Assembly: GCA_026393455.1 (NCBI GenBank)
Contig: JAPLAE010000004.1
Coordinates: forward strand, 1-33,324
Length of the DNA stretch: 33,324 bases
Direction: 5' to 3'
DNA from: Actinomycetota bacterium
GTDB lineage: Bacteria > Actinomycetota > Acidimicrobiia > Acidimicrobiales > Acidimicrobilacustridaceae
Positions 11,532 through 15,587 of the stretch are shown here, piece by piece (the first letter of the stretch is position 1; each line of letters begins with the position of its first letter). The position numbers were made by a program, and so were the translations under genes. The notes under the pieces are model-generated. The model was not told where the DNA came from. It saw nothing but the letters and a program-made list of their open reading frames with translations, and did not search any database.

Positions 11532-11608
11532 CGGGGAATGGCGCAGCTTGGTAGCGCGCCTGCTTTGGGAGCAGGAGGCCGGGAGTTCGAATCTCCCTTC
11601 CCCGACCA
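11532..11608 (+). tRNA. tRNA-Pro (anticodon TGG)
   Basis: The acceptor arms CGGGGAA and TTCCCCG pair fully and are followed by ACCA, so the CCA end is encoded. The anticodon arm CCTGC-TTTGGGA-GCAGG is perfect and gives anticodon TGG, which reads CCA proline codons. The T arm contains GTTCGAATC. Length is 77 nt. Confidence 0.97.
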
Positions 11609-11915
11609 GCTGAGCAGCAGATTTTTACAGGATTTCGTCAGTGCCCGAAAGGCATTGGAATCCGGATTGGCAACGGACCTGGGACTTTTGTTCCAGATCC
11701 GTTGTTCGCTCTATGTGAAACCGCCGAACTTTGGGCACTACAGCAAGCACACAGAGGCTTCGTTGTTTCTTCTCGCTGATGTTCAGGCTCGTTTTCTGTT
11801 ACAACGCCTTTTACGGCGATGCCACCTAGAGTCTGAACCGTCGGCGGGCATCTGCGGAAATAAACCTCCGATCCCCGCCTCGGCACATCTATTCAGAGAA
11901 CGACTTGGAGCTTCG
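11609..11915 (+). other. 307-nt gap after tRNA-Pro with several inverted repeats
   Basis: I see no convincing gene here; an open frame continuing from the tRNA reads through but lacks coding character. The stretch holds a long hairpin at 11671-11704 (listed separately), a 10-bp perfect palindrome AATCCGGATT at 11659-11668 and 6-bp arms GATGCC/GGCATC at 11818-11852. It ends with a GGAG ribosome binding site 5 nt before the ATG at 11916. It probably contains the end of the tRNA transcript and the promoter or leader of the following gene. Confidence 0.5.
11671..11704. repeat. 34-nt hairpin-forming inverted repeat downstream of tRNA-Pro
   Basis: The outer arms CAACGGA and TCCGTTG pair perfectly over 7 bp. 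After one C/A mismatch, the inner arms CTGGGA and TTCCAG pair over 6 bp with one G-T wobble, closing a CTTTTG loop. No T-run follows on the plus strand, so it is not a standard intrinsic terminator. It could still end or stabilise the tRNA-Pro transcript, or be an operator or a small mobile-element remnant. Confidence 0.6.
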
Positions 11916-13187
11916 ATGGATTCGGGAACCACCGCCGCACAACAGCCAAACAATCAGACAGTTGATGAGTCCTCGGGGTCTCGAAACGGTTCAGACCAGT
12001 TTGATCGTGACCTCACCGTCCGCTGGCTTGCCGCCGTTCTGTCACTGACCGCTGGAGCGGTGCATTTCGGTTACGCGCCGCACCATCTTTCCGAAGACTG
12101 GGCGCATGGTTGGTTCTTCTTGTTGATCGCTGCATACCAATGCGCGTTTGCCGTTCTGATCGTTGCCCGTCCACGCCGGTGGGTCTGGGCATCAGCGATC
12201 ATCATCAACGTCGGCATCATCGCCACTTGGGTTGTCTCTCGAACCGTTGGCCTTCCGTTCGGTCCAGAAGCATTGCGTTCGGAAGTCTTCTCCGCTCCGG
12301 ACATCGTCAGTTCCATCGTTGAAGGTGTCATCATCCTTCTTGCAGTTATTGCGCTTGCTTTTCCCGCGCTCTTGACCCGGCCAAGTCGTGAACGAATTTC
12401 GCTGCGTTTTGCTGCACTTGCTATCGGCACAGTTTCAGTCGTATTGGGGGCGATCATGCTCACTCCCAGCTACACCGAGGCTCACGAAACCGCTGGGCAT
12501 TCACATGGCGGCACGGCAGAGGCATCCTCCACCCCCACACCATGCGAGCTCTCCGGCCCGCCGGCATCACCTGGCCAGGTCGCAACCGACGCCGAAGGTC
12601 ATAGCCATCGGGGATCGACGCCTCAGGTTGAACTCACTCGCGATGAACGTGTACTTCTTAAATCGCAACAGGAACTGGCCCGCACTGTCGTGACGAAATA
12701 TCCAACGGTCGCGGATGCTCTCGCCGCCGGGTACCAAAAGTCAACCGCCTATGTTCCGTGTATCGGAGCGCACTACACAAATGCGCGACTCGCGGCTTCC
12801 TTTGATCTGGCCAAGCCTTCCGAGCTTCTCTTCGACGGGACGAACCCTGATTCAAAACTCGTCGGACTGAGTTACCTCGTCTTTCATCCCGGCGGCGCTC
12901 CAGAAGGGTTTGCCGGACCGAATGACGTTTGGCATCAGCACATCAGTAACGGAGGCCTGTGCTCGAAGGGCGGACTCGTTATTGGTGGCGAGGCCATGAG
13001 CGTCGAAGACTGCACTGCGCTCGGTGGTCGCAAATCGGCCAACAAAGACGTGTGGATGATGCACGACTGGATCGTGCCAGGCTGGGAATGCTCGTGGGGC
13101 GTCTTCGCCGGAGAGTGTCCCGAAGGTACCGCATGGGACGCACCCGCTCCGGGTTCGGTTGGGGCGCAACTCGCCGCTCCGAACTGA
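11916..13187 (+). CDS. Unrecognised five-helix membrane protein with His/Cys-rich C-terminal domain
   Basis: I cannot name this family. From the ATG at 11916 (GGAG site 5 nt upstream) the product is 423 residues. Residues 1-35 are hydrophilic. Five hydrophobic segments follow at about 36-55, 63-84, 90-110, 128-153 and 162-182; His residues sit near the first (AGAVHFGYAPHHL). A linker with HETAGHSHGG (190-199) and EGHSHRG (227-233) resembles metal-binding linkers. The C-terminal domain (about 240-423) is dense in potential ligands: C282/H286 (PCIGAH), H324 (FHPGG), H340/H342 (WHQH), C349, C366, H383 (MMHDW), C392 and C401. A metal- or redox-related extracytoplasmic role is plausible but unproven. 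The open frame extends upstream through tRNA-Pro, which argues against an earlier start. Confidence 0.75.
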   Translation: MDSGTTAAQQPNNQTVDESSGSRNGSDQFDRDLTVRWLAAVLSLTAGAVHFGYAPHHLSEDWAHGWFFLLIAAYQCAFAVLIVARPRRWVWASAIIINVGIIATWVVSRTVGLPFGPEALRSEVFSAPDIVSSIVEGVIILLAVIALAFPALLTRPSRERISLRFAALAIGTVSVVLGAIMLTPSYTEAHETAGHSHGGTAEASSTPTPCELSGPPASPGQVATDAEGHSHRGSTPQVELTRDERVLLKSQQELARTVVTKYPTVADALAAGYQKSTAYVPCIGAHYTNARLAASFDLAKPSELLFDGTNPDSKLVGLSYLVFHPGGAPEGFAGPNDVWHQHISNGGLCSKGGLVIGGEAMSVEDCTALGGRKSANKDVWMMHDWIVPGWECSWGVFAGECPEGTAWDAPAPGSVGAQLAAPN

Positions 13188-13372: not shown

Positions 13373-13858
13373 TCAGGTCATCGAGGAATGGGTTGAGACG
13401 AGGAGCCCGATCATTGAGACCGGAAGACCGATGTCGTAAAGAAGAATGAGCGAGTTGCCCGGTTTGAAGTTTTTGTCCTGAACCATCTTCATGATGTGCT
13501 GCACGGTGCAAAGAAGAAGGAAGATCGACATAACCGCAGTCATCACTAACCAGGTGTCCCAACCGCGACCCGCTGCAAGAATTGAACCCACGCCCATGGC
13601 GTAAGCAGAGAATCCGATCTCATATTGGAAACCATTGGTTTCCCATCCAATGTTCTTTGCAGTGGATTTCGCGAAGAACGTATGCATGAGACCCGAAACC
13701 AAAACTTGGATTCCTGCGGGGAGTAGCAACATCCAACGCATTGCGTCCTCAGCGAATGCTTCGGTACCAGTCCCACCCGAAACGAATGGCGGAGTCCAGC
13801 CAAGCCACGCAAACACCCAAGCGAGTACGACCACTAACGGCAACATGAGTACGCCCAT
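13373..13858 (-). CDS. Small integral membrane protein, DUF6790-like
   Basis: The 161-residue product starts at the ATG at 13858, which has GAGG 6 nt upstream; the longer open frame to 13972 adds an Arg-rich stretch without membrane character. Four hydrophobic segments are visible (about residues 1-21, 41-60, 77-96 and 102-120) plus a C-terminal one. The motif NIGWETNGFQYEIGFSAYAM resembles the GW-x-PFQ-x-E signature of DUF6790 proteins, whose function is unknown. It is divergent from the MBL-Rieske gene across 175 nt and converges on tRNA-Gly. Confidence 0.75.
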   Translation of the reverse strand: MGVLMLPLVVVLAWVFAWLGWTPPFVSGGTGTEAFAEDAMRWMLLLPAGIQVLVSGLMHTFFAKSTAKNIGWETNGFQYEIGFSAYAMGVGSILAAGRGWDTWLVMTAVMSIFLLLCTVQHIMKMVQDKNFKPGNSLILLYDIGLPVSMIGLLVSTHSSMT

Positions 13859-14000
13859 GGATTCCTCAGTTCTCCTATTTGGTTGTCGATCGAACCTACG
13901 CCCGCAGTCACGTCCCCAGAGGGATTCCCAATGAACCGAGGAGGAATCCAGCAAGGGGAACTCATGAACCACACCACAAGCAGTAAATCGACGAGATCTC

Positions 14001-14033: not shown

Positions 14034-15587
14034 ATGAAGGCGACATCGATCGGTCACGCGGGAATCCTCATCGAGACCACCGATGTGTCCATTGTGTGTG
14101 ACCCATGGTTTCTTCCGGCGTTCCAAGGTTCGTGGTGTGTGTTCCCCCGCAACGACTGCCTCTCCCCTGACCTCATGTCACGCATCGAATCTGCCGACTA
14201 TCTCTATATCTCGCACATACACGGCGACCATCTCGACGAGTTGTGGCTTTCCGATCACATCGCACGCACAGCAACGGTCCTCCTCCCCGGCTACCCCACG
14301 CGAGAACTCGAGAACCGACTGAGCGAACTCGGTTTCGTTAACTTTGTGCGAACCGTTGACGGTAAAGAGATCGACCTACTGGGCACTACTCGAATTGCAA
14401 TTCATTGCGAGACATCGATTACCGACGGCCCTGGTGGAGATTCCGCGCTCGTGGTTTCCGACGACACCGGACGCCTCGTGAATCAAAACGATTGCCGGAC
14501 TCACGATCTCGCCGCCCTTACCGCGCATGGGCCCATCGACCTCCATTGGGTGCAGTACAGCGGCGCAATCTGGTACCCCATGGTCTACGACGAACCAATT
14601 GACGTCATGCGAGAGCTCGTCGATGCGAAGGTTGCCAGCCAGTTCGCGAGGGCCCTTCGGTACGTCGAGGTCATCAGCGCACGCGCTGTCGTTCCCAGCG
14701 CTGGTCCACCAGCCTTTCTCGATCCCGAGTTGTTCGGTTTGAACATGATCACCGGAGAGGAATTAAGTATCTTTCCCGATCAGGTCGAATTCATGAACCG
14801 ATTGTCCGATGCTGGCCACACCGGGATTCTCGCCATTCCTGGAACCACCATTGCGTTCACACCGGAGCGCGTCGATGTCACGCATCCGTGTTCGGCGAGC
14901 CAGGTTGCCTCGATCTTTGAACAGAAAGAGTCCTACCTTCGCGAGTATCAGCGGGACTGGCTCCCATGGATCGAAAACCGTAAGTCGCAGTGGGTTCAGC
15001 CAACCGAAGATCTCGTGCAGCGCCTCCAGGAGTGGTGGGAACCATTACTCGCTATCGCCCCGAATCTTCGCAACGGCGTCAACGATGTTTGTGTCATCGA
15101 TATGGGCGAACTCAAGATCGCAGTCGACTTCCCTGCCGGCACCGTTTCGGAATGGGACGGTGCCGATTGCGGCTTTCGCTTCACCATTGATCGCCGCCTT
15201 GTAGAAACGGTCGCTGCCGAACGCGCTGTGGACTGGAGCAACTCGTTGTTCCTGTCCTGTCGCTTTTCAGCGTGGCGGTCGGGGCCGTTCAACGAATACG
15301 TCTACAACTTCTTCAAATCGCTCTCAGAAGAACGAATGATCAGAACAGAGGCCGAAGCGCTGCGCAAAGCCGATCCTGACCGAGGCGGCATTGCCGAAGA
15401 AGAAATTCAGATCGGCAATTGGATCGTCCAACGCACATGCCCCCACCGCGACGCTGACCTTTCCGTCTTCGGAGTGATCGATGGCGATGAATTGGTCTGC
15501 ACGTTGCACGGCTGGAGATTCGACAGCTCGACAGGAAAATGCCTCAACGCCGAAGAGCGCACATTGCGTATTCGACCGGTTTCTTAG
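14034..15587 (+). CDS. Metallo-beta-lactamase-fold protein fused to a C-terminal Rieske domain
   Basis: This 517-residue protein joins two metal domains. The N-terminal part (about 1-270) is an UlaG-like metallo-beta-lactamase fold: it opens with SIGHAGILIE, has D23 in CDPWF, and carries the metal motif HIHGDHLDE (H61, H63, D65, H66). Residues of about 280-430 hold a helical, Trp-rich segment and a region that may be SCP2-like. The C-terminus has a Rieske [2Fe-2S] motif, CPH at 469-471 and CTLHGW from 489 (ligands C469, H471, C489, H492). CMP-Neu5Ac hydroxylase combines the same two folds but with Rieske first, so a monooxygenase acting on a bound small molecule or lipid is plausible (inference). 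No CMAH substrate genes are nearby. It converges on the PhyH-like gene with 7 nt between stops. Confidence 0.88.
   Translation: MKATSIGHAGILIETTDVSIVCDPWFLPAFQGSWCVFPRNDCLSPDLMSRIESADYLYISHIHGDHLDELWLSDHIARTATVLLPGYPTRELENRLSELGFVNFVRTVDGKEIDLLGTTRIAIHCETSITDGPGGDSALVVSDDTGRLVNQNDCRTHDLAALTAHGPIDLHWVQYSGAIWYPMVYDEPIDVMRELVDAKVASQFARALRYVEVISARAVVPSAGPPAFLDPELFGLNMITGEELSIFPDQVEFMNRLSDAGHTGILAIPGTTIAFTPERVDVTHPCSASQVASIFEQKESYLREYQRDWLPWIENRKSQWVQPTEDLVQRLQEWWEPLLAIAPNLRNGVNDVCVIDMGELKIAVDFPAGTVSEWDGADCGFRFTIDRRLVETVAAERAVDWSNSLFLSCRFSAWRSGPFNEYVYNFFKSLSEERMIRTEAEALRKADPDRGGIAEEEIQIGNWIVQRTCPHRDADLSVFGVIDGDELVCTLHGWRFDSSTGKCLNAEERTLRIRPVS

Follow-up and report, generated by a model that had tools for sequence, protein, structure and literature searches.

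The window analyzed here, the whole 33,324-nucleotide stretch of contig JAPLAE010000004.1 from an Acidimicrobiia genome (assembly GCA_026393455.1), carries at positions 14034 to 15587 of its forward strand a gene whose 517-residue product is a member of the NamH family, a family already known and here noted in this lineage. We consider it likely, judging from sequence and from family membership, that the protein is an O2-dependent hydroxylase with a metallo-beta-lactamase (MBL) fold that acts on a muramic acid precursor, its Rieske cluster relaying the electrons. It combines three domains of recognizable fold with invariant ligand residues, occurs widely and nearly always as a single copy, and shares its genome with murB. 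The features are as follows.

14034..15587, + strand: NamH-like (Rv3818-like) three-domain predicted hydroxylase, 517 residues (translation, Pfam, alignment of relatives)
14034..14858, + strand: MBL-fold domain, approximately residues 1 to 275, UPF0173/NAPE-PLD-like (Pfam Lactamase_B_3 at residues 4 to 74; fold matches over model residues 1 to 275)
14214..14231, + strand: HxHxDH metal motif, H61 to H66 (translation; alignment of relatives)
14439..14441, + strand: D136 in GGDS (141 of 141 relatives)
14490..14492, + strand: D153 in NQND (141 of 141 relatives)
15012..15353, + strand: SCP2-like domain PF25451, residues 327 to 440 (Pfam; Foldseek to sterol carrier protein structures)
15426..15554, + strand: Rieske [2Fe-2S] domain, residues 465 to 507 (Pfam; Foldseek to Rieske ferredoxins)
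15438..15509, + strand: Rieske ligand motif C469-P-H471-x17-C489-x2-H492 (translation; alignment of relatives)

The frame is open with no internal stop, and although 22 further open codons lie 5′ of the ATG at 14034, similarity to homologues begins at the Met of that ATG and not upstream. The Pfam match to Lactamase_B_3 is barely above its threshold (24.6 bits, cutoff 24), and the other two are well placed: 140.4 bits for PF25451, "Rv3818-like, SCP2-like" (cutoff 28.2, E = 3.9e-41), and 40.3 bits for Rieske (cutoff 20.3). The initial annotation had reported an HxHxDH motif and a C-x-H-x17-C-x2-H motif in one chain; both are complete at the residues it gave (the former spelled H61-I-H63-G-D65-H66) and are backed by Pfam, but it overlooked the SCP2-like third domain between the MBL and Rieske parts. 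The structure model of the protein is confident (predicted local distance difference test score, 90.3; predicted template modeling score, 0.87). Modeled alone, the C-terminal part still folds and matches both SCP2 and Rieske ferredoxin structures in Foldseek.

The same fusion recurs in many genomes and is therefore not an assembly error. A scan of genome contigs gave at least 571 relatives among 597 pattern matches listed, and among the best 80 of the 571, which were kept, most are labeled Acidimicrobiia, Ilumatobacteraceae, Acidimicrobiaceae, Actinomycetes, or Actinomycetota. Conservation was assessed over 141 distinct relatives, leaving out identical sequences and those that aligned to less than roughly 460 residues of the query (copies split or cut at contig edges, for example L016, L091, L102, L110, L153, and L169). 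Both motifs are complete in 140 of these near-full-length proteins: C469 and H471 are present in all 141 and C489 and H492 in 140, the exception (L077) being cut by a contig end in the C489/H492 region. Homologues encoded on plasmids of Rhodococcus ruber (two), Tsukamurella tyrosinosolvens, Nocardia farcinica, and a Nocardia sp. are 38 to 40% identical over 99 to 100% of the query, and the N. farcinica and Tsukamurella copies score above cutoff for both PF25451 and Rieske; seven other plasmid-collection records match only 43 to 75% of the query. Searches for PF25451 in overlapping genus, class, and phylum samples hit 19 of 20 further genomes from the window's genus (the exception is 71% complete), 57 of 296 class-sample genomes (56 above cutoff), 38 of 396 phylum-sample genomes, and, each time, none of 14 control genomes. 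There is one match per genome in 57/57 cases for the class sample and in 22/23 for the genus search.

Some relatives stand apart from this pattern. A Microbacterium plasmid copy (L180, 5001 to 6758) is annotated as three frames (MBL, hypothetical, Rieske) and has perhaps decayed or suffered a sequencing error. Nine metagenome-assembled genomes (L031, L059, L063, L096, L098, L109, L055, L064, L093) bear the labels Bifidobacterium breve, Acidobacteria, or Deltaproteobacteria, which clash with proteins close to the window's clade; these may be mislabeled bins, at a guess, or cases of gene transfer. Phage records gave no match to the window protein at an E value of 1e-5.

Rv3818 is described as namH of Mycobacterium tuberculosis, encoding the hydroxylase that produces N-glycolylmuramic acid; homologues are listed for several Corynebacteriales as well as for Micromonospora, Salinispora, and Stackebrandtia, and more sporadically for Catenulispora and Rubrobacter (PMC6194230). 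Its deletion in M. tuberculosis is reported to abolish N-glycolylation wholly (PMC7125112), and the protein is described as non-essential, with UlaG as its N-terminal domain and Rieske at the C terminus (PMC10050696). The window protein has the layout of NamH/Rv3818 of the Mycobacteriales, namely, an N-terminal UlaG-like MBL domain, an Rv3818-like SCP2 domain, and a C-terminal Rieske domain, and its Nocardia, Rhodococcus, and Tsukamurella homologues share the same invariant ligands at 38 to 40% end-to-end identity. No NCBIfam model names NamH, and since the Nocardia, Rhodococcus, and Tsukamurella copies pass no curated NCBIfam cutoff, the failure of the window protein to pass one is uninformative.

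A second enzyme bears on this identification. CMAH of animals also has a Rieske domain and an MBL fold, and it carries out the N-acetyl to N-glycolyl chemistry that we propose for the window protein. Its Rieske domain is N-terminal, at residues 6 to 112 (PMC9219854), whereas that of the window protein occupies residues 465 to 507 of 517, and its substrate differs. The initial annotation was thus right that the order is the inverse of that in CMAH, and its suspicion of a monooxygenase-like enzyme is supported, but its reading of the order as the mark of a different, unrecognized one is not: because MBL-then-Rieske is the order published for NamH (PMC10050696), the arrangement cannot be claimed as novel, and the idea of a new architecture was dropped as false novelty. 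That the protein is a CMAH-like enzyme acting on CMP-sialic acid with its domains rearranged would fit the similar fold pair and the probably identical chemistry, and NeuB does occur in 2 of 13 same-genus genomes (G008, G012) and in 6 of 21 genomes searched; however, NeuB gave no match in the genome of the window (82.9% complete) or, counting it, in 11 of the 13, and among those with no match, G002, G003, G004, and G007 have the namH-like gene in assemblies of at least 92% completeness. Together with the C-terminal position of the Rieske domain, this makes such an enzyme exceedingly improbable. No CMAH structure stands among the 50 rows listed in either of two fold-match searches, which says nothing about CMAH.

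The putative metal site is unusually acidic. H61, H63, D65, H66, D136, and D153 are each invariant in 141 of 141 relatives; from its position, D136 may stand in for the usual third histidine and D153 may be a bridging metal ligand. Asp likewise occupies the D136 position in eight aligned relatives that have the MBL part only, and an acidic residue in place of the third histidine has been tied to iron-dependent MBL oxidoreductases (PMC7785958). This pattern, together with Rieske ligands that are intact in 140 of 141 relatives (the remaining one truncated), makes it scarcely credible that the protein is a hydrolase with a decorative or regulatory Rieske domain.

Other known systems resemble parts of the protein. 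The model matches the MBL fold of the diiron beta-hydroxylases CmlA and FrsH, in which that fold forms the C-terminal half (residues 251 to 532 and 252 to 531, respectively), whereas in the window protein it starts at residue 1; these two enzymes are not known to have a Rieske domain and act on carrier-bound amino acids. The alkylsulfatase SdsA1, an MBL hydrolase not known to have a Rieske domain, shares the SCP2-like part, and the C-terminal model hits it at rank 26 (E = 1.3e-2). Ring-hydroxylating Rieske oxygenases place a mononuclear-iron catalytic domain after the Rieske domain, unlike the window protein, which has only about 10 residues there. Among MBL-only relatives, six (L113, L114, L115, L117, L119, L174, from IMG/VR contigs and Halobaculum) keep HxHxDH, Asp-Ser/Thr at the D136 position, and N-x-N-D at D153, match neither PF25451 nor Rieske in Pfam, and represent a broader MBL clan that has these acidic ligands in common. 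Another IMG/VR contig (L112, 350 to 4632) encodes an MBL protein that shares 29% identity over 247 residues with the window protein's MBL half, also with no Rieske or PF25451 match, and that adjoins NeuB, cytidylyltransferase, and DegT aminotransferase genes.

We propose that electrons would pass from a reductase to the C-terminal Rieske [2Fe-2S] cluster and from there to an iron site in the N-terminal MBL fold, the iron being held by H61, H63, D65, H66, D136, and D153. O2 would be activated at this site and one oxygen inserted into the N-acetyl methyl group of a muramic acid precursor, either UDP-MurNAc or a cytoplasmic precursor further along the pathway, to yield N-glycolylmuramic acid destined for peptidoglycan. 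All of this is predicted: the metal and the roles of its ligands, the route of the electrons, and both substrate and product. For NamH itself, UDP-MurNAc is given as the substrate and molecular oxygen as the oxidant (PMC10234563); a 2013 account describes the exact step as unsettled, with lipid II among the proposed substrates, and reports that NamH contacts MurF alone in a protein-interaction assay, pointing to UDP-MurNAc-pentapeptide (PMC3605390). A muramic acid precursor is favored for the window protein by family identity, by two plasmid-borne murB neighbors described below, and by MurB in same-genus genomes (12/13; 19/21 of the genomes searched overall).

We next examined gene neighborhoods, counting as homologues of window genes only blastp hits against all reading frames of each locus that covered at least half of the gene at E values no higher than 1e-15. 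The 64 loci of at least 6 kb from outside the genus reach 4 kb on both sides of the namH-like gene in 26 cases and on at least one side in 58. In Tsukamurella and R. ruber MSA14 the order is SpoIID/LytB, HAD hydrolase, lysophospholipid acyltransferase, the namH-like gene, and serS, which matches the gene order around Rv3818. On R. ruber pYYL1.1, typed as conjugative (L171, 4751 to 7551), the namH-like gene adjoins a gene for UDP-N-acetylmuramate dehydrogenase, and on plasmid pPE-7 of Nocardia sp. PE-7 (L173, 740 to 7554) such a gene lies 4.2 kb away. Neighbor families were counted in 77 loci on genes called crudely by codon usage, so that the gene list is approximate. An L,D-transpeptidase family, one member of which has YkuD and peptidoglycan-binding domains in Pfam, lies near the namH-like gene in 24 of the 77 (among L035 to L110) and in 23 of the 64 non-genus loci of at least 6 kb, with an SHGCxR motif in 22 of the 24; these neighbors lend weak support to the assignment to NamH. 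In 34 of the 77 loci (among L035 to L110) there is also a neighbor family whose scanned member matches the 2-oxoglutarate-Fe(II) oxygenase family PF13640.

The window's own neighbors led the initial annotation to hint at a lipid substrate. Genes for an acyltransferase, PhyH, and TauD do adjoin the namH-like gene in the window, and the middle domain of its product has the SCP2 fold, which frequently binds lipids. Lipid II, moreover, was once proposed as a NamH substrate (PMC3605390). Yet the linkage was seen only within the genus: the acyltransferase and TauD homologues occur in nine same-genus loci only, representing seven genomes besides the window's (two loci are repeats), PhyH occurs in 3 of 10 same-genus loci of at least 6 kb, and blastp found homologues of acyltransferase, TauD, PhyH, and an Acyl_transf_3-like gene in 0 of the 64 non-genus loci. 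Nor is the window acyltransferase clearly homologous to that of the Tsukamurella neighborhood (22% over 69 residues, E = 0.013). The neighborhood was therefore rejected as evidence for the substrate, and a lipid-modifying monooxygenase that cooperates with these three genes appears very unlikely.

Two further features of the window lie near the gene. A DUF6790 gene on the opposite strand (13373 to 13972) precedes it and has a homologue in 3 of 10 same-genus loci of at least 6 kb. A tRNA-Pro gene (11532 to 11608) overlaps the first listed start of the open reading frame at 11538 to 13187 (Acyl_transf_3 match below cutoff), which therefore probably begins further downstream.

To describe how the window protein relates to NamH of the Mycobacteriales, we divided the alignment into group W (identity to the window protein above 50%; 94 of 141 rows), group M (25 rows, drawn from the phylum search and from named plasmid records), and group C (21 rows from the rest of the class), and built a tree by a quick method from 79 of the 141 rows, chosen by thinning at 80% identity, with 10 rows retained deliberately regardless of it. 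The coherence of group W is partly by construction because it was defined by identity to the window protein, but the tree supports the group. Group W has a mean identity of 45.3% to group C.

Several observations weigh against NamH function. In the tree the window protein sits in a clade of its own, on one side of a branch with a Shimodaira-Hasegawa-like approximate likelihood ratio test value of 99, and group W averages 42.3% identity to group M on the Mycobacteriales side. Eleven positions (30, 122, 126, 128, 129, 156, 165, 200, 398, 437, and 472) are at least 90% uniform within W and within M yet differ between them, including L126E, P129I, R200V, and L472R. The gene neighborhood is not shared with that of NamH, and no peptidoglycan biosynthesis gene was recognized beside 14034 to 15587 among the window genes scanned. 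Fold similarity to the hydrolases UPF0173 and NAPE-PLD is as strong as to CmlA, one genome (G013) has an extra, partial PF25451 match on another contig, and we found no report of N-glycolylmuramic acid in Acidimicrobiia among the open-access papers listed, the one that mentions Ilumatobacter not using the term "glycolyl". We predict orthology to NamH from three things: the name of the Pfam family, the homologues seen in sister genera, and the order of neighboring genes.

The substrate of the window's clade could thus have drifted from that of NamH. An enzyme derived from NamH that keeps its chemistry but has switched to another N-acetylated sugar nucleotide, such as UDP-GlcNAc or a capsule sugar, would account for the separate clade with its long stem and for the placement of several of the 11 differences beside invariant residues (126, 128, and 129 are close in sequence to D131/D136, and 156 is close to D153), along with those at position 200 and, in the Rieske loop, at 472. 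We nonetheless think such a switch unlikely. The predominance of one match per genome (57/57; 22/23) fits an orthologue, the metal-motif and Rieske ligands are all unchanged, and two relatives (L024, L108) have mixed residue sets at the distinguishing positions, suggesting that the clade diverged in steps from one shared ancestor and did not arise separately. Coevolution of positions 126 and 472 was considered as evidence for contact between the Rieske loop and the MBL site but was dropped, since the two independent pairs that the tree offers are too few for statistics.

The prediction that the window protein is a NamH-type hydroxylase of muramic acid precursors would mean that many uncultured Acidimicrobiia have N-glycolylated peptidoglycan, which is mostly treated as a feature of mycobacteria and their kin. 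It is also conceivable, if doubtful, that the window's clade forms a NamH subtype of its own in which the remodeled MBL and Rieske-loop residues E126, I129, V200, R437, and R472 altered the substrate or the coupling of electron transfer, such that a widespread Acidimicrobiia lineage N-glycolylates another cell-surface sugar or precursor stage than mycobacteria do. What remains of interest is this diverged clade and the predicted peptidoglycan N-glycolylation in uncultured Acidimicrobiia, and the divergent set of 94 of 141 members may be useful for locating the residues of the NamH substrate site and of the Rieske-MBL interface.
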